Below are positions 5,345-30,254 of a stretch of 64,000 bases of DNA, piece after piece. Under the pieces are notes generated by a model. The model worked only from the letters and a program-made list of their open reading frames with translations, was not told the DNA's origin and searched no databases. The translations under genes and the position numbers were made by a program. Numbering within the stretch: position 1 is the stretch's first letter; the number at the start of each line of letters is the position of its first letter. Source of the stretch: Dokdonella sp. (GTDB lineage Bacteria > Pseudomonadota > Gammaproteobacteria > Xanthomonadales > Rhodanobacteraceae); the NCBI GenBank assembly GCA_016712865.1, contig JADJQH010000004.1, positions 226,904-290,903 on the forward strand. Direction: 5' to 3'.

Positions 5345-6229
5345 TCACAGCGCCTCGTGGTTGTCGATGGCAGCGCATTTGTTTAGCCAAACCCGGGGGG
5401 GCATGCCGAGCTTCGCGGTGAATGCGCGCGACAGGGCCGAGGGACTGGCGTAGCCGAGTTCGTCCGCCAGGACCTTGATCGCCTGACCTTCGCGCAAACG
5501 GCTTTGTGCCAGCGACATTCGCCAGTCGCTCAGATAGTCCGCAGGAGTTTGACCGACCACTTCTCGAAAGGTGTTGGCAAAGGCAGTGCGTGACATGCCG
5601 GCACGTTCGGCCATGCGATGCAGTGGCCAGGAAGCGCCGGGTGCATCGTGCATGGCGACCAGGGCACGCGCAAGGCGCGGGTCGGAAAGGCCGGTAAGGA
5701 AACTGGGGCGCGTGCCCGCTTCCTGTGGATGATCCAGCAGCCAACGCAGCACCTGGATAACCACTACTTCGAACAATCGATCAGCAAGCAGGCGCTGGCC
5801 GCAACGCACACGATCAATTTCCGCGAACAGGAGTTCAAGCGCCTGGTCCAGGCCCGGCACGCGGGACAGCGGCAGGCAAATCAAGGGCGGCAGCGCACGC
5901 GCGAAGGGATTGTTCGCACCACCCTCGAAGTCCAGGCGCGCGCAGGTGAAATCCGAACCTTCGCTGGGTGGGTTGTGAAACCGGTGCGTGAGAGGACGCG
6001 GATACAACAACAGGGTCGGTTCGTTGAAATGCATCGATCGCGGCATGTCTCGCGCGCCCGGATGGCTCACACGCAAACGGCCGCGCCGTAACACATGCAA
6101 GAAGCCGTGCCCCGCGCCGGCGTCGAACTGGCTGGTGCCACACAAGGCGCCGGAATGATGCAGCCGGGCCTGCACGCGAAATCTTTCGAGGATGCCGGAA
6201 AGGCGATCAATGGCCACGGGGAATTGCAT
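5345..6229 (-). CDS. AraC family transcriptional regulator
   Basis: A 294-aa regulator. The N-terminal part (about 1-170) looks like a cupin-type AraC ligand-binding domain, with SQFDAGAGHGFLHVLRRGRLRV near its start. The C-terminal ~100 residues contain two helix-turn-helix motifs: MAERAGMSRTAFANTFREVV, then IKVLADELGYASPSALSRAF followed by GMPPRVW. The ATG at 6229 is chosen because homology starts at about QFPVAIDRLS; the frame stays open to 6310. It is divergent from the secreted protein gene at 6326 with about 96 bp between start codons, so that gene is the most likely target. The ligand is unknown. Confidence 0.88.
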   Translation of the reverse strand: MQFPVAIDRLSGILERFRVQARLHHSGALCGTSQFDAGAGHGFLHVLRRGRLRVSHPGARDMPRSMHFNEPTLLLYPRPLTHRFHNPPSEGSDFTCARLDFEGGANNPFARALPPLICLPLSRVPGLDQALELLFAEIDRVRCGQRLLADRLFEVVVIQVLRWLLDHPQEAGTRPSFLTGLSDPRLARALVAMHDAPGASWPLHRMAERAGMSRTAFANTFREVVGQTPADYLSDWRMSLAQSRLREGQAIKVLADELGYASPSALSRAFTAKLGMPPRVWLNKCAAIDNHEAL

Positions 6230-24082: not shown

Positions 24083-24244
24083 GGGGCCCCGGACTCCATG
24101 CGGCAAAGCGCGCAAGCCTACCATGGCGCCTTGCGGCATAATGGCGGACTGACTCGCTCCGGCCGGACCCCATGCCTGTCGCCGCGGGAGCTCCCCCCAA
24201 ATTCAAGTCGCACCGGCACCCGCTGCCCAAAGAGCCAATTCACC

Positions 24245-26323
24245 ATGCTTAGAGAAGCCATCGAACTCCATCGCCAGGGTCGCCTGGAAGAAGCCGAAAC
24301 TGCTTACCGCGCGGCGCTGCAAGGCAATCCGAACGACGGCGAAGCCTTGCGTGGCCTCGGCGCCGTGCGACGCATGCGCGGTGATCTGGCCGAAAGCGCA
24401 GCGTTGATTTCGCGTGCCCATGTGCTGGCTCCCGAACAGCCCAAGCTGCTCATGATGCTCGGTGCCGTGCAGTTCGAGTTGGGCAACGCGGACGCCTCGC
24501 GCGATGCTTATGAGCGCGTGCTTGCCCTGGACCCCAACACCGCGGGAGCGCACACGGCGCTCGGTCACATTGCCATGATGCAAGGCAATCCGACCTTGGC
24601 CGAACAGTATTTCCGCACCGCGATGCGGGTCAACGAAGATCCGCAGGCGCTGGCCGGACTCGGCACGCTTGCGCTGGACCGTGATGATCCGGAAACCGCC
24701 ATCAAGTACCTGACACGCGCCTCCGATCTGGCGCCGAAGGATGCCGGCATCGCCTATGCGTTGGGTCGTGGATTTGCCAAGCGCGGCATGATTGCCTTTG
24801 CCGAGCAGGCCTTCCGCAATGCACTGCGCCTGCGGCCCGGGCAGCCGAATGCAACCAGTGCACTCGGCCAGTTGCTGGTCCAGGAAAAGCGCCCGGGTGA
24901 AGCCGAACCCTACTTCCGCTCGCTGCTCGGCAAGCGCGGCTTCGATCTGGTCGCCGAACTCGGCATGGGCGATGTCGCGCGCCAGCAGGAGCGTTTCGAA
25001 GAAGCCGTTGAATCCTACAAGCGCGCCCTGGCTCTCAAGCCGGATCATGCGCTTGCCTTTGAAACCCTGATCGCCTGCCTCGGCAAACTCGGTCGCGGTT
25101 CCGACATTCTTCAATTGCTCAACCAGCGTCTCGGCGAGCATCCCGAACAGGATCGCTGGCGCGTCATGCGTGCGCGCGTGTTTGAAGCCGGTGGTCGCAT
25201 CGGCGAGGCCATTGCGGACTGGAAGTGGCTGCACGACAAACATCCGCAGAACGGCGAGGCCGTGGCGGAACTGGCCCGCGCGCACGAGCTCAATGGCGAT
25301 CTCGACCTTGCCGCCAGCCTGGCGGAAAGCGCCGCCACCCTGAATCCGGACAATCCCGCGCTCACGGTCGTGCGCGTGCGCGCCCTCATGCGCAAGGGCG
25401 AAAACGAGCGTGCGCGTGAATTGCTTGCGGGCATCAGCCTGAGCCAGGTCGAACAGAACCTGTCTCGTACCTGCATGAACCTCTATGGTCACTTGCATGA
25501 TCGCGCCGGGCAGATGGTCGAGGCATGCGACTACTTCCGCGAATCGCAGAATGCACTGCCGCTGGTGCTGCCATCGCTCGATCCGCTGCCGGAAAACTTC
25601 GAGGCCGAACTGGCAAGGGTTGACGGCCAAGCCTGGTCGCAGGCGCCGATCCTGCTGGTCGGTGCGCCGGGCAGCGGCGTCGAACGCATCGCCGCGTTGC
25701 TGGCCGAGCAACCCGGGTTTAACGTGTTGCGTGATCGCGTGCAAGGCGTGCGCAACGACTGCTTCGATGGTGCGGCCGTGGACCTCAGTGCCGACAGCAT
25801 GCCGGAAGCGGATGCCGCAGCGCATCGCGAAACCTACCAGGCCAGCCTGCGCGCGCGCGGCCTCGATCTCGACAAACCGCTGATCGACTGGATCCCGCGT
25901 TTCGATGCACGCTACCTGCTGGTGGCACGCCACGTGATGCCCGGCACCCGCATCATCATCGTCGATGCCGACCCGCGCGAAGCCATGCTCAACTGGCTGG
26001 CGTTCGGTTGGCTGCCCTTTGCCGGCATGAGCGATTTCGACAATTGCGTGGACTGGCTGGCGCGCGCCACCGCGCACCTGCGTTTCGCCGCAAACCAGAA
26101 CGTGGTGCCGGGCATTGTCGTGGATGCGGAAAAGGTGATGGCGGATCCCGCCAAGGCCGGTGCCGATCTCGCCCGTTTCCTCGGCCTGGAAACCCTCAAG
26201 GCCGGATCGCTCAGCAAGAGTTTCGAAAGCGGCCTCGGCGGAATGCCGGCACGCTTCGCCAAGGGTCATTGGCAGGCCTATGCCGAAGCCCTGGCGGAAC
26301 CCTTCGCCAAGCTGCCTGTTTGA
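24245..26323 (+). CDS. TPR protein with degenerate sulfotransferase-like C-terminal domain
   Basis: 692 aa. Residues 1-430 are a run of tetratricopeptide repeats (YRAALQGNPNDGEALRGLGA, YERVLALDPNTAGAHTALGH, and so on). The C-terminal ~200 residues align by eye with the TPR-sulfotransferase at 31437, but key motifs are lost. The PAPS 5'-phosphosulfate loop reads LVGAPGSGVERIAALL instead of VGxPRxGTTLLxxLL, and the 3'-phosphate motif reads DADPREAMLNWL instead of RRDIRATALSLW. It may therefore be a scaffold rather than an enzyme. The start is ATG 24245; the upstream extension is not conserved-looking. Divergent from the Ycf46-like gene. Confidence 0.85.
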   Translation: MLREAIELHRQGRLEEAETAYRAALQGNPNDGEALRGLGAVRRMRGDLAESAALISRAHVLAPEQPKLLMMLGAVQFELGNADASRDAYERVLALDPNTAGAHTALGHIAMMQGNPTLAEQYFRTAMRVNEDPQALAGLGTLALDRDDPETAIKYLTRASDLAPKDAGIAYALGRGFAKRGMIAFAEQAFRNALRLRPGQPNATSALGQLLVQEKRPGEAEPYFRSLLGKRGFDLVAELGMGDVARQQERFEEAVESYKRALALKPDHALAFETLIACLGKLGRGSDILQLLNQRLGEHPEQDRWRVMRARVFEAGGRIGEAIADWKWLHDKHPQNGEAVAELARAHELNGDLDLAASLAESAATLNPDNPALTVVRVRALMRKGENERARELLAGISLSQVEQNLSRTCMNLYGHLHDRAGQMVEACDYFRESQNALPLVLPSLDPLPENFEAELARVDGQAWSQAPILLVGAPGSGVERIAALLAEQPGFNVLRDRVQGVRNDCFDGAAVDLSADSMPEADAAAHRETYQASLRARGLDLDKPLIDWIPRFDARYLLVARHVMPGTRIIIVDADPREAMLNWLAFGWLPFAGMSDFDNCVDWLARATAHLRFAANQNVVPGIVVDAEKVMADPAKAGADLARFLGLETLKAGSLSKSFESGLGGMPARFAKGHWQAYAEALAEPFAKLPV

Positions 26324-26351
26324 CGGGCATCACGCACTGCGGAATCTCCCG

Positions 26352-26552
26352 ATGGCTGAGCGTTGCACGCAGTGTGGGGAACGGACCGCAGTGCGAGGTG
26401 CGCTCAAGTGGTACGGTCGCTTGTTTGTGGGATCGTGGTTCGATTCGAGAATGTGGTGCGCGGACTGCGCGGGCGGATTGAATTTCATCGGTTTGCTGGC
26501 TCTTTCAGCCATTGCGCTTGCCGCGTTCGTGTTGATCGTGATCAGCGGTTAG
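26352..26552 (+). CDS. Small zinc-ribbon-like membrane protein (66 aa)
   Basis: Starts at ATG 26352, 28 bp after the TPR gene. It has two CxxC pairs (CTQC at about 6-9 and CADC at about 36-39), which could form a zinc ribbon, followed by a single hydrophobic segment (FIGLLALSAIALAAFVLIVI) at the C-terminus. Good codon usage supports a real gene. I do not recognise the family; it is probably a tail-anchored inner-membrane protein, possibly co-transcribed with the TPR gene. Confidence 0.55.
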   Translation: MAERCTQCGERTAVRGALKWYGRLFVGSWFDSRMWCADCAGGLNFIGLLALSAIALAAFVLIVISG

Positions 26553-26946
26553 ACAACTGATTTCAAGATCCACCACTCACGCAGGGATCCGAGAGGAAGA
26601 TTCCCCGCCCGCGTGGACCACAGGACACGTAATGAGACCCTACCCTCAATTCGGGAATTCGAAAGCAGGGTCTGTCGAGCGGCGACGAGCCTCCGGGTTT
26701 CCGCGATACACAACGCTCGGCCGCCTGTGCATTGAGAATCCCGGGGGAAATCGAGCGCGGCCATCGCCATTCAATGAATTGACCAGAGTTGCGCAACAGG
26801 CTCATCATTGATCCGAAATATTGATCTTGCGGTCAATTCAAAAATGGGCCAAGTTGCAATGGAACTATTCGAGCTGGTTCTTAGCAGATGTCTTCACAAG
26901 TGACGTGATGGCGTGAGCCGCATCAATGGGATGGGGACAATCAGGC
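26553..26946. other. Intergenic region, nothing recognisable
   Basis: About 390 bp with lower GC than its neighbours. I see no convincing reading frame, hairpin terminator or member of the repeat families found elsewhere in the window. It probably holds the promoter of the Rieske-like gene that follows. Confidence 0.5.
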
Positions 26947-27504
26947 ATGCAACGGCGGGATCTGCTGAGGTGGGTCGTCACAGTCATGGGCTTGCTTGGC
27001 ATTGGCTTGGCCACAATACCCTTCTTCCGCTCTATGTCGCCCTCCTCTTCCATCAAAGCCAATGCCAAGTTTGTCGTTGACCTGTCCGATCTTCGACCCG
27101 GCGTGCTCAAGATCGTGGAAACTCCAGTTGGACCGGTGTTCATCCTGCGCCCAAATGCCGAACAACTCCGCTCTATCGCAAGCCTTGATGCGCATGTCTG
27201 GCATCCCGAGCAGATTGCCTATTCGAAAGAGGTGGATGCGTTCATCTACTGGGGCATAAGCACCCGGTTCGGTTGTGAGCTTCTGGAGAAGAAGGCACCA
27301 CGATCAATCCTAACTGAGTTTTATGACAGTGGAACATGGCTGGGCGGATACTGGGATCCGGCTTGCGAAGTCAGTTACGACTATGCCGGACGGGCCATCA
27401 AGAACGGCGAATTCACCTTCAACGGATACAACATGGAGTATCCGAATCTCGACGTGCCGAGATTCAAGCGGCATGGTGACAAACTGATTATCTTCAGGTT
27501 GTGA
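26947..27504 (+). CDS. Rieske-fold protein lacking all Fe-S ligands
   Basis: About 185 aa. The N-terminus MQRRDLLRWVVTVMGLLGIG is an Arg-pair plus transmembrane anchor as in the iron-sulfur subunit of cytochrome bc1. KFVVDLSDLRPG and GPVFILRPNAEQLR match the same subunit. In the cluster-binding loops the family motif GxCTHLGC reads GISTRFGC, and GGxFCPCHGSxYDxSGR reads GGYWDPACEVSYDYAGR. So the two Cys and two His ligands are Ser, Asp, Arg and Glu, while the two disulphide cysteines remain. It cannot hold a normal [2Fe-2S] cluster. ATG 26926 is an alternative start. It precedes two small genes in the same direction. Confidence 0.8.
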   Translation: MQRRDLLRWVVTVMGLLGIGLATIPFFRSMSPSSSIKANAKFVVDLSDLRPGVLKIVETPVGPVFILRPNAEQLRSIASLDAHVWHPEQIAYSKEVDAFIYWGISTRFGCELLEKKAPRSILTEFYDSGTWLGGYWDPACEVSYDYAGRAIKNGEFTFNGYNMEYPNLDVPRFKRHGDKLIIFRL

Positions 27505-27546
27505 GCAAGTCGTGGGAATGACAGCGATATTCAAAAAGGAATCACG

Positions 27547-27960
27547 ATGAGACAAATTGCCAAAGGAGCCTTTGATGTCCATCTGCGACCCTTGCCATTC
27601 GAGGGCGCGGAGCCGGAATGGAAGCTCGGGCGCATGTCCATCGACAAGCAGTTCAGCGGCGATCTGGTCGCAACGAGCCAGGGCCAGATGCTCAGCGCGA
27701 TGACCGATACCGCTGGATCCGCGGGCTATGTGGCGATTGAGCGGGTTTCCGGTGTGCTGAATGGAAAACAGGGCACGTTTGTTCTCCAGCACAACGGGTT
27801 CATGAATCGCGGAGTGCCGGCACTCTCGGTTGCGGTCATTCCGGATTCGGGGACCGGGGAGCTTGAAGGACTGGAAGGTGATTTCAAGATCATCATCGAG
27901 GGCGGTAAGCATCGCTACGAGTTCAGCTATGGTCTGCCGCATGGCAAGGCTCCGCGGTGA
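27547..27960 (+). CDS. DUF3224 domain protein
   Basis: A 137-aa protein matching DUF3224, a small beta-barrel family of unknown function. Features: KGAFDVHLRPLPFEGAEPEW, the FSGDLVATSQGQML strand with MDTAGSAGYVAIER-like continuation, GKQGTFVLQHNGFMNRG and GTGELEGLEGDFKIIIEGGK near the end. The start ATG has AAGGA seven bases upstream. The stop overlaps the GTG start of the next gene (GTGA), so these two are translationally coupled. Confidence 0.88.
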   Translation: MRQIAKGAFDVHLRPLPFEGAEPEWKLGRMSIDKQFSGDLVATSQGQMLSAMTDTAGSAGYVAIERVSGVLNGKQGTFVLQHNGFMNRGVPALSVAVIPDSGTGELEGLEGDFKIIIEGGKHRYEFSYGLPHGKAPR

Positions 27961-28397
27961 AGCGTATCGAACCCACGTTGGGTGACATCGACGAAGTTCT
28001 CCAAGCCGACGCTTCTGGCGGGCGCTCGCTCACGCGGACCCCGGAAAGCGCTTCAGATCGAGTCTGGATCACTTTTGCGAGCCTGCTCACATTGCTCAGT
28101 GTCATCACGCCGTATGCGCTGCTGCATAGCGGAAGAATCGGTAACGCGGTTGGCGAAAGTGCTTCGATTCTGGTTCCGAAATCCCTGGTGCTCGGAGGAA
28201 TCGCCATATTGTGGTCGATCTATCTTTTGGGCATCGTCGCTTTGTTCAGCCGCAGCTTCACAAGGGGTGTCCTGTCCTTGCTGCTGCCCGGACACTGGTT
28301 CTTTGCCTTGCCCAGGGAGGGACTGTGGCTGTCCTTCGTCGGATTTACCTATCTTGGGTTTGCCTTTTGTGTGCTTGGTGCGCTGCATCTTGCCTGA
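27957..28397 (+). CDS. Polytopic membrane protein of unknown function (146 aa)
   Basis: GTG start at 27957 within the DUF3224 stop. A polar N-terminal ~35 residues (MKRIEPTLGDIDEVLQADAS) is followed by about four hydrophobic segments (ITFASLLTLLSVITPYALL, SLVLGGIAILWSIYLLGIVA, VLSLLLPGHWFFALP, FVGFTYLGFAFCVLGALHLA). No family recognised. Third gene of the Rieske-like/DUF3224 group, so it may provide a membrane partner for one of them. Confidence 0.7.
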   Translation: MKRIEPTLGDIDEVLQADASGGRSLTRTPESASDRVWITFASLLTLLSVITPYALLHSGRIGNAVGESASILVPKSLVLGGIAILWSIYLLGIVALFSRSFTRGVLSLLLPGHWFFALPREGLWLSFVGFTYLGFAFCVLGALHLA

Positions 28398-28433
28398 TAT
28401 TTCCGCATTGGGACTGCTCCAATGCCGACTGGT

Positions 28434-28685
28434 CTAGCCCGCATTATTCATGAACGTCGCAGGAAAACGCCCGTGAGCTTGATGACGCAATGCAATCTGG
28501 CAATTCGCAAATTCAATAAGGTGTTCGATGCGTTTTCCTGCTGGCACGGCCCTCGCGGGTCTTTTGTCCCAAGCGCTGCGTTGCTTGTCGCCCCAATGGA
28601 ACCACCATTGCGGCTCCGCGCGCCTTGCGCTTGGGGCAAAATCCTCCGCGATCTTCCGCGCCCGTTCATGAATAATGCGGGCTAG
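28434..28685. mobile_element. Family D palindromic element (252 bp), copy 1
   Basis: Ends are CTAGCCCGCATTATTCATGA and its exact reverse complement, giving 23-bp perfect inverted terminal repeats that both finish in CTAG. The interior has no credible gene and includes short palindromes (GGCACGGCCCTCGCGGGTC; CGCCTTGCGCTTGGGGC). A second, composite copy is at 29737-30090. It is MITE-like, placed between the membrane protein gene and the PEBP gene. Confidence 0.85.
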
Positions 28686-28830
28686 GCAGACTCTGCAGGT
28701 GCATAGATTCGCATCTTCGGCCGGAAACGCAGTTCACACGGCAGCACGATGCACCTTACAGTGCGCATGCGGCGCGTTTGCCGTCATTGGCCAACGTTGA
28801 AGGTGAACCGCTTCAGGAGGGGGAACAGCT

Positions 28831-29463
28831 ATGTACATCCGCAGCAAAAGCTTTCACGACATGCAACCGATCCCGGCCGAGTTTGCCTTCGGCAAGCCGG
28901 GGCCGAATGGCGAGCCCTGCGTGTTTTCCGACAACCGCAATCCGCACCTGATCTGGGGCGACGTGCCGGAGGGTACCCGTTCCTTCGTGCTGACCTGCAT
29001 CGATTCCGATGTGCCGACGGTTGGCGATGACGTCAACCAACCCGGTCGTCGCGTGCGCGCAGACCTGCCGCGCGGCGAGTTCGTGCACTGGTTGATGATC
29101 GACATTCCCGCCGAGTTCCGTGAGCTGGGCGAAGGCGCCTGTGCGGAAGGTGTAGTGGCGCGCGGCAAGCAGTCGCCGCACGGTCCACCGGGATCCCGCC
29201 AGGGCGTGAACGACTACACGGGATGGTTTGCCGGTGATGCCGACATGAAGGGCGAATACCTTGGCTACGATGGCCCGTGTCAACCCTGGAATGATGATCG
29301 CCTGCATCACTACCACTTTCGTGTGCATGCGCTGGATTGCGCATCGCTCGGGCTGGAGGGTCGCATCGACATCACCGCCGTGCGCAAGGCGATGCAGGGC
29401 CACGAGCTCGGCTCGGCGGAAGTGGTCGGCACCTACACATTGAATGCCGCGCTGCGGCGATAG
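28831..29463 (+). CDS. YbhB/YbcL family PEBP (Raf kinase inhibitor-like) protein
   Basis: A 210-aa member of the phosphatidylethanolamine-binding protein family. Visible: SDNRNPHLIWGDVPEGTRSF (the conserved NPHLxW region), CIDSDVP, the GEFVHWLMIDIPAE strand with the conserved HW, GVNDYTGWF and HHYHFRVHALD. Bacterial members are cytoplasmic or periplasmic and of unclear function; here no signal peptide is seen. Strong Shine-Dalgarno AGGAGGGGG before ATG 28831. Flanked on both sides by mobile palindromic elements. Confidence 0.9.
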   Translation: MYIRSKSFHDMQPIPAEFAFGKPGPNGEPCVFSDNRNPHLIWGDVPEGTRSFVLTCIDSDVPTVGDDVNQPGRRVRADLPRGEFVHWLMIDIPAEFRELGEGACAEGVVARGKQSPHGPPGSRQGVNDYTGWFAGDADMKGEYLGYDGPCQPWNDDRLHHYHFRVHALDCASLGLEGRIDITAVRKAMQGHELGSAEVVGTYTLNAALRR

Positions 29464-29736: not shown

Positions 29737-30090
29737 CTAGCCCGCATTATTCATGAACGTCGCGGGAAAACGGTCGAAGCCCAGGTGTGACAACGTATTA
29801 CGACGATCAATGGATTCAACAGTGTGTACGCCTGAGTGTCCCGAGTGACCCCGAAAATCATCATTCCGAGAAGGCAAGCGTCTGGTGAGAAATGTCTGCC
29901 GCGAACATCCACGCCCGCTCATGAATAGTGCCGGTTGAAGCCTGGTGGATGCGCTGCGCTTATCCACCCTACAACGGTGGAAAGGGCTTTCGTAGGGTGG
30001 ATAAGCGCAGCGCATCCACCGGTTATGGAGTGTGGAACAGAAGAATTCCTCCGCGATCATCCGCGCCCGCTCATGAATAAAGCGGGCTAG
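29737..30090. mobile_element. Family D element, composite copy with nested repeat
   Basis: Left end CTAGCCCGCATTATTCATGA at 29737, right end TCATGAATAAAGCGGGCTAG at 30090. An internal right-end-like half (GCCCGCTCATGAATAGTGCC) near 29920 suggests a second insertion or duplication. Between about 29940 and 30022 sits an inverted pair of GTAGGGTGGATAAGCGCAGC hairpins, another known-looking REP type also present singly at 34500. The right CTAG is shared with the family C element that follows. Confidence 0.75.
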
Positions 30091-30254
30091 GAGCCTGCGC
30101 GGCAGAAGCCATCCGGCTGCAACGCCGCTGCCATCGATTGATTGGGTCAATCGTCAGGGTTGCATAGTGCCCGCTATGCGCACCTTCCGATTGATCCACT
30201 GAATCGCGTCAGCGTCGTTTCGCTTCGAATTCATTCTGCCGCGCAGGCTCCTAG
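30087..30254. mobile_element. Family C palindromic element (168 bp), copy 2, overlapping the uppP stop
   Basis: Begins CTAGGAGCCTGCGCGGCAGA and ends TTCTGCCGCGCAGGCTCCTAG-type (positions 30234-30254). It is exactly the same length as copy 1 (16883-17050) and inverted relative to it. The final CTAG at 30251-30254 contains the TAG stop codon of the minus-strand uppP gene. Confidence 0.85.

Follow-up and report, generated by a model that had tools for sequence, protein, structure and literature searches.

NirD is a soluble subunit of nitrite reductase. Rieske-type proteins with replaced cluster ligands are on record, among them the NirD of Bacillus bataviensis, in which two key residues are replaced (PMC3475470), and PSB33 of Arabidopsis, an integral membrane protein annotated as Rieske that is devoid of the Fe-S-binding residues which its Chlamydomonas ortholog keeps, and which helps PSII-LHCII organisation and has a supercomplex role (PMC6006212). 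That the bc1 Rieske head can fold without its cluster is documented by the Zn-form of T. tepidum PetA, which holds zinc at the cluster site (PMC10492824). Ligand loss in Rieske-type proteins already has precedents in PSB33 and one NirD; no description of a bacterial bc1-type Rieske protein with all four ligands replaced and with evidence of selection was found in the open-access literature searched.

The window, as we call the whole stretch of 64,000 nucleotides of Dokdonella sp. DNA analysed here, encodes a membrane-anchored protein of this kind, derived from the bc1 Rieske protein (PetA). Within the samples searched, its family comprises five ligand-less copies, spread over four genomes from two families: one copy in the window genome, one in a sister species (G003) and, in another family than these, two in genome G434 (G434a and G434b) and one in G561. 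The protein appears unable to hold the cluster, its ligands being lost, and the gene is yet kept by selection, so that it has probably been recruited to a non-redox task in binding or structure.

Descent from PetA and loss of the cluster ligands

The open frame at 26947-27504 has an alternative in-frame ATG at 26926, which would add seven residues. At E up to 1, its sole NCBIfam match is TIGR01416, the proteobacterial bc1 Rieske family (residues 2-180, E 7e-16; 58.7 bits, below the cut-off of 97.4), a family matched at that threshold by all five members. In Pfam only the N-terminal PF10399 matches (E 0.02, below cut-off); the Rieske domain PF00355 does not appear among the matches with E up to 1, and the protein is also absent from the four PF00355 matches in its own genome. 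The twin-arginine/transmembrane anchor claimed in an earlier note on this DNA is present at the N-terminus, inside the TIGR01416 match, with RR at residues 3-4 and a helix at 3-22 in alignment and model, and we take it to be Tat-like. The top PDB chain is the Pseudomonas aeruginosa bc1 Rieske protein (8smr_C) with E 9e-9, and with a profile of the five members this chain reaches E 4e-13.

The window genome has its own normal petA (VGICTHLGC ... FFCPCHKSRFD) on another contig, adjoining a cytochrome b-like frame recognised by eye. The two proteins share 30% identity over 162 alignment columns, and twelve residues of the own PetA ahead of box 1 are missing from the window protein in the MAFFT alignment. 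The relation is not confined to the anchor, as the head of the window protein alone (residue 39 on) scores 43.5 bits against an HMM of 71 petA (HMMER), and the heads of G003, G434a and G561 score 45.4, 28.1 and 21.5 bits. The best of 100 shuffled members, shuffled at full length and not as heads, reached 2.3 bits, about the value of the head of G434b (2.4 bits), the most divergent member, whose whole sequence scores 23.1 bits.

Structure prediction with AF2 gave two models of low confidence, with mean pLDDT of 47.1 from an alignment of two rows, none a true petA, and 48.8 from three rows, one a true petA; a search of viral_contigs for further rows yielded a single contig encoding petA. Foldseek returned 257 and 411 matches for these models (pLDDT 47-49) with a limit of E 10, and the best 50 of each set are bc1/complex III or Rieske entries by title, with TM-scores by query length of 0.29-0.42. 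As Foldseek also uses sequence, the matches are support and not proof of the fold. A prediction without a Rieske fold was not obtained: for each of the two models, low in confidence as they are, the best matches are bc1 Rieske chains.

The ligand columns were read in an alignment of the five members with 71 petA, drawn from 87 petA of a ligand-motif search after near-copies were dropped. Ligand and disulphide columns read C, H, C, C, C, H in 71/71 petA, which is true by construction because the motif search picking them requires the ligands. Among 99 fetched loci from PetA-type searches, 86 were motif-picked; the other 13 divide into eight petA with intact ligands and the five ligand-less family loci (Table 1).

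In the window protein the four ligand columns hold Ser105, Arg107, Asp137 and Cys140, no Cys or His ligand is kept in place, and in each of the five members no ligand residue stands at any of the four columns. Both motifs read in the earlier note, GISTRFGC and DPACEVSYD, are present in the 185-codon frame, and its claim that all four ligands are replaced holds as to their loss; it had taken the fourth replacement for Glu and both disulphide cysteines for conserved. However, WLGGYWDPACEVSYD pairs gap-free with WKGGFFCPCHGSxFD in MAFFT and HMMER alike, which leaves Cys110 in place, Ala139 at the second disulphide column and the second cysteine one residue further on, at the former His ligand, so that the replacements are Ser, Arg, Asp and Cys; the former reading would need one insertion and one deletion. 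Boxes 1 and 2 are YWGHSSKWGC and WLGGYWDWLCEVSYDYSGR in G434a, YWGLTRYRL and WLGGYVESPWGGSSYDYAGR in G561, and VWGGGRWAT and WLGGYWLARDLRYWVPTGCYDYAGR in G434b.

The disulphide of T. tepidum PetA joins Cys129 to Cys154, and His155 is named beside it (PMC10492824). Judged from sequence, Cys110 and Cys140 of the window protein may form a shifted disulphide. A thiol or metal site, in which the two cysteines would meet at the tip as a redox-active disulphide or a single-metal binder, would accord with their being both invariant in three of the five members and with the capacity of PetA itself to hold zinc at the cluster site (PMC10492824), but the two remaining members lack both cysteines at those columns and do without them, and no His is found at the ligand columns of any member, so that we regard such a site as distinctly unlikely.

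Table 1. Coordinates of the features discussed (positions in the window unless a locus, L, is named)
Feature	Position	Strand	Basis or remark
Ligand-less Rieske-like protein, 185 aa	26947..27504	+	frame, profile match, sister-species conservation
RR motif and transmembrane anchor, residues 1-28	26947..27030	+	weak PF10399 match, E 0.02; helix 3-22 in model
Box 1, GISTRFGC, residues 103-110	27253..27276	+	ligand Cys to Ser105, ligand His to Arg107, disulphide Cys110 kept
Box 2, WLGGYWDPACEVSYDYAGR, residues 131-149	27337..27393	+	ligand Cys to Asp137, disulphide Cys to Ala139, ligand His to Cys140
Longer segment replacing PetA Pro-loop (PAPxNL), residues 153-168	27403..27450	+	MAFFT alignment
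2507-bp stretch, GC 55.9%	26324..28830	.	between TPR-protein gene (24098-26323) and PEBP gene (28831-29463)
Probable remnant, start of 251-aa gene preceding the Rieske-like gene in sister	26844..26889	+	one pairwise DNA alignment
251-aa frame beside Rieske-like gene, G003	L035 5603-6358	-	secretion-like start by eye
DUF3224 gene, neighbour	27547..27960	+	E 4e-40
146-aa membrane-like frame, neighbour	27957..28397	+	frame list; membrane segments by eye
petA loci with intact ligands, outside motif selection	L048, L053, L081, L085, L086, L105, L107, L108		
Ligand-less family loci	L076, L113, L114, L119, L121		three known by coordinates, failing even loose motif

A small family and purifying selection between two species

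The window protein is matched in 194 of 197 related genomes, but high scores are confined to the window genome (424 bits) and G003 (290 bits, 71% identity), all others among the matches listed scoring at most 49.4 bits; 28 of the lower-scoring matches were fetched and read, and all have the ligands. A scan of genome contigs gave one relative, SHNG01000084.1, with the same protein as that of G003. With a two-row profile, 281 of 369 genomes of the class match, including G434 with its two copies (158 and 69 bits), and the search of 95 relatives of G434 added G561 (99 bits). A five-row profile recovered only the three copies (243-301 bits) from 20 genomes of the order of G434, others scoring at most 65, and only the window genome (G000) and G003 (306-309 bits; next 63) from 233 genomes of the own family; at E 1e-20 it found only G434 in 369 genomes of the class, largely the same as in the two-row scan, and nothing new above 66 bits in 398 genomes of the phylum. 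The few matches make the family rare and patchy within these samples. The other four members are 70, 39, 35 and 31% identical to the window protein, and a tree with 76 rows sets the five apart as one clade by a branch supported at 100/100, for which the tree program flags long branches and unsettled bootstrap. G434 also contains a fourth, short match (G434:C32:38433-38600, residues 3-60, 20 bits, E 9e-4).

A homologue with the same four replacements, which the earlier note suggested looking for, was found in the sister species, at the same locus and with 70-71% identity; a homologue with an intact CxH...CxxH motif was not found in this neighbourhood, the nearest one there being also ligand-less. 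Between the two species dN is 0.195 and dS 0.925, giving dN/dS of 0.21 (NG86), with 0.28 (YN00) and 0.23 (LWL85) by other methods, and purifying selection acts on the gene. The earlier note's proposal of a fold retained by selection after the redox centre was lost is thereby well supported, by the same replacements in the sister, by dN/dS of 0.21-0.28 and by the three distant ligand-less copies.

At 0.92, the dS of the gene (window 26947-27501 vs L035 5041-5595) is roughly double the values of four neighbours (0.34-0.47), for which separate acquisition, exchange or different codon constraint may be responsible.

A decaying, functionless PetA copy is very improbable in the light of these values. 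It would be in keeping with the gene being less like its sister (70% identity) than the neighbouring genes are (83-94%), and with the low GC and the apparent loss of an upstream gene from the window, but the frame is open in five copies, dN/dS is 0.21-0.28 and the family motifs are common to members at 31-39% identity.

Conservation is uneven along the protein. Window and sister proteins are identical at 13/15 residues of box 1 (98-112) and 21/22 of box 2 (131-152), vs 30/38 (1-38), 25/37 (39-75), 12/22 (76-97), 13/18 (113-130) and 15 of 30 aligned residues (153-185) elsewhere, so that the two boxes are most alike and the region of the former Pro-loop, whose replacement segment ends in NL in the MAFFT alignment, is among the least; G434a agrees with the window protein at 19/22 positions of 131-152. 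With the first Met excluded, 21 positions have the same residue in at least four of the five members and in at most five of the 71 petA. Seven of them are aromatic (W85, Y101, W102, W136, Y146, F156, Y161), another, where the His ligand used to be, is Arg or Lys107, and four (124, 160, 161, 166) lie in segments which petA lacks and have no petA counterpart. With only five sequences, two of them close, such conservation rests on few independent lineages.

The genomic locus and its neighbours

The gene lies in a stretch of lower GC (55.9%; the gene itself 53.4%, the window 62.7%) between a TPR-protein and a PEBP gene. Of seven congener stretches fetched for comparison, G002 being left out because its contig ends there, four have the TPR-protein and PEBP genes adjacent, with 26-123 bp between tblastn ends (G001, G004, G007, G008), and for the three others (G005, G006, G009) the search did not recover the two genes together. 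The site is thus empty in four congeners, and in the window genome and G003 other genes stand between the two.

In the sister species the Rieske-like frame begins where a 251-aa frame ends, at 5603 (5619 for the longest form, 5595 at the Met used). Judging by the recognisable first codons, the rest of this 251-aa gene was probably lost in the window. The frame matches one of 197 genomes, G003 itself, and its only Pfam match has E 0.22.

The neighbours named in the earlier note, a DUF3224 gene and a small membrane frame and not petBC, are indeed those of the window, with the own petA on another contig. As a link, this neighbourhood is local: DUF3224 follows the Rieske-like gene in window and sister, at 85% identity, but the 146-aa gene is confined to the window, the contig of the sister giving no match to it, and by eye neither gene is seen beside the other three copies, where the frames look unrelated. 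With DUF3224 in 9/10 genus genomes and the Rieske-like gene in 2/10, an operon with DUF3224 as a general link is rejected, and as the neighbours differ between members, by eye, gene context gives no function.

Carriage by a virus or plasmid was likewise rejected: no relative of the family was found in viral_contigs; at E up to 0.1 neither PHROGs nor PADLOC had a match to the window protein, G434a, the sister's 251-aa protein or the 146-aa protein, nor PADLOC to DUF3224; and the 28 plasmid records that match are all below 60% identity, eight of the ten listed being annotated petA and two having no listed gene.

Some further features were observed at these loci. The island holds one copy of a 66-aa frame that combines Cys pairs with a membrane-like tail (window 26352-26552) and has two matches in G003 (L035 6649-6846 and 4732-4926). 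Repeats of 24-48 bp, 92-100% alike, lie at the island's right end and recur beyond it on the same side (28434-28469, 28639-28686, 29737-29772, 30044-30091). Just upstream of G434a is a 126-aa membrane-like frame (L099 8479-8859, minus strand) with weak phage-family matches, the best to phrog_12086 (E 1e-4).

Proposed role and comparison with known systems

A normal Rieske redox role is disfavoured, as far as sequence can tell, and a non-redox, membrane-anchored binding or docking protein is the best explanation, which we consider reasonably probable. Beyond what was computed (descent, ligand loss, selection, conservation, empty site), we infer an orientation, the absence of iron, a binding role and a partner. 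The protein would be a neofunctionalised relative of PetA with a single span and a probably periplasm-facing Rieske-fold head unable to carry a [2Fe-2S] cluster, in which the loops once enclosing the cluster (box 1, box 2 and the Pro-loop) would have been remodelled into a strongly conserved surface rich in aromatic residues. Most likely this surface serves to bind a partner at the membrane, either a protein or a small molecule, and the role would be docking, scaffolding or ligand binding rather than electron transfer.

A rival reading is a blank Rieske subunit: using its anchor and hinge, the protein would still take the place of PetA in the cytochrome bc1 complex and, because it cannot pass electrons, would modulate, protect or pause the complex. 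Anchor and hinge do follow petA well, with mean identities to the 71 petA of 0.38 (residues 1-38) and 0.36 (39-75), PDB matches of the five-member profile mostly span residues 2-73 to 2-80, and the window genome, G003, G434 and G561 each carry a further petA-like match. However, box 2 is equally petA-like (0.40), so that the anchor is not specially kept, petA-like matches occur in most genomes searched, so that co-occurrence says little, and the gene is not near petBC. The Pro-loop and box 1, which in bc1 touch cytochrome b and c1, are altered in the window protein. We consider such a subunit unlikely, and less likely still its elaboration, in which it would compete with PetA for bc1 from a small variable genomic island, the redox-dead tip being a brake, an assembly placeholder or a Q-cycle protector. 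If docking on bc1 were true, nature would have supplied a redox-dead probe for following how the Rieske protein moves.

Rieske proteins are defined by their cluster, and a clade of bacterial proteins in which selection retains the bc1-type scaffold with its anchor although every ligand is gone shows that the scaffold is reusable for non-redox work; automatic labels such as 'ubiquinol-cytochrome c reductase iron-sulphur subunit' can also be wrong.

Among the described systems, the NirD of B. bataviensis has two residues replaced vs four in the window protein, and the Zn-form of T. tepidum PetA is an immature state of normal PetA with the ligands present, in contrast to the window protein, which is without them. 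PSB33 is the nearest published analogue in kind; unlike the window protein it is a plastid protein of photosystem II organisation, likened by description and a functional precedent only. From PetA (TIGR01416) the window protein differs in having no Cys/His ligands in place, the second disulphide Cys shifted or, in other members, lost, about 12 residues fewer before box 1, a replaced Pro-loop and a gene apart from petBC, whereas the N-terminal RR/transmembrane anchor, the hinge, the strand order and the WxGG[FY] ... [FY]DxxGR framework are those of PetA.
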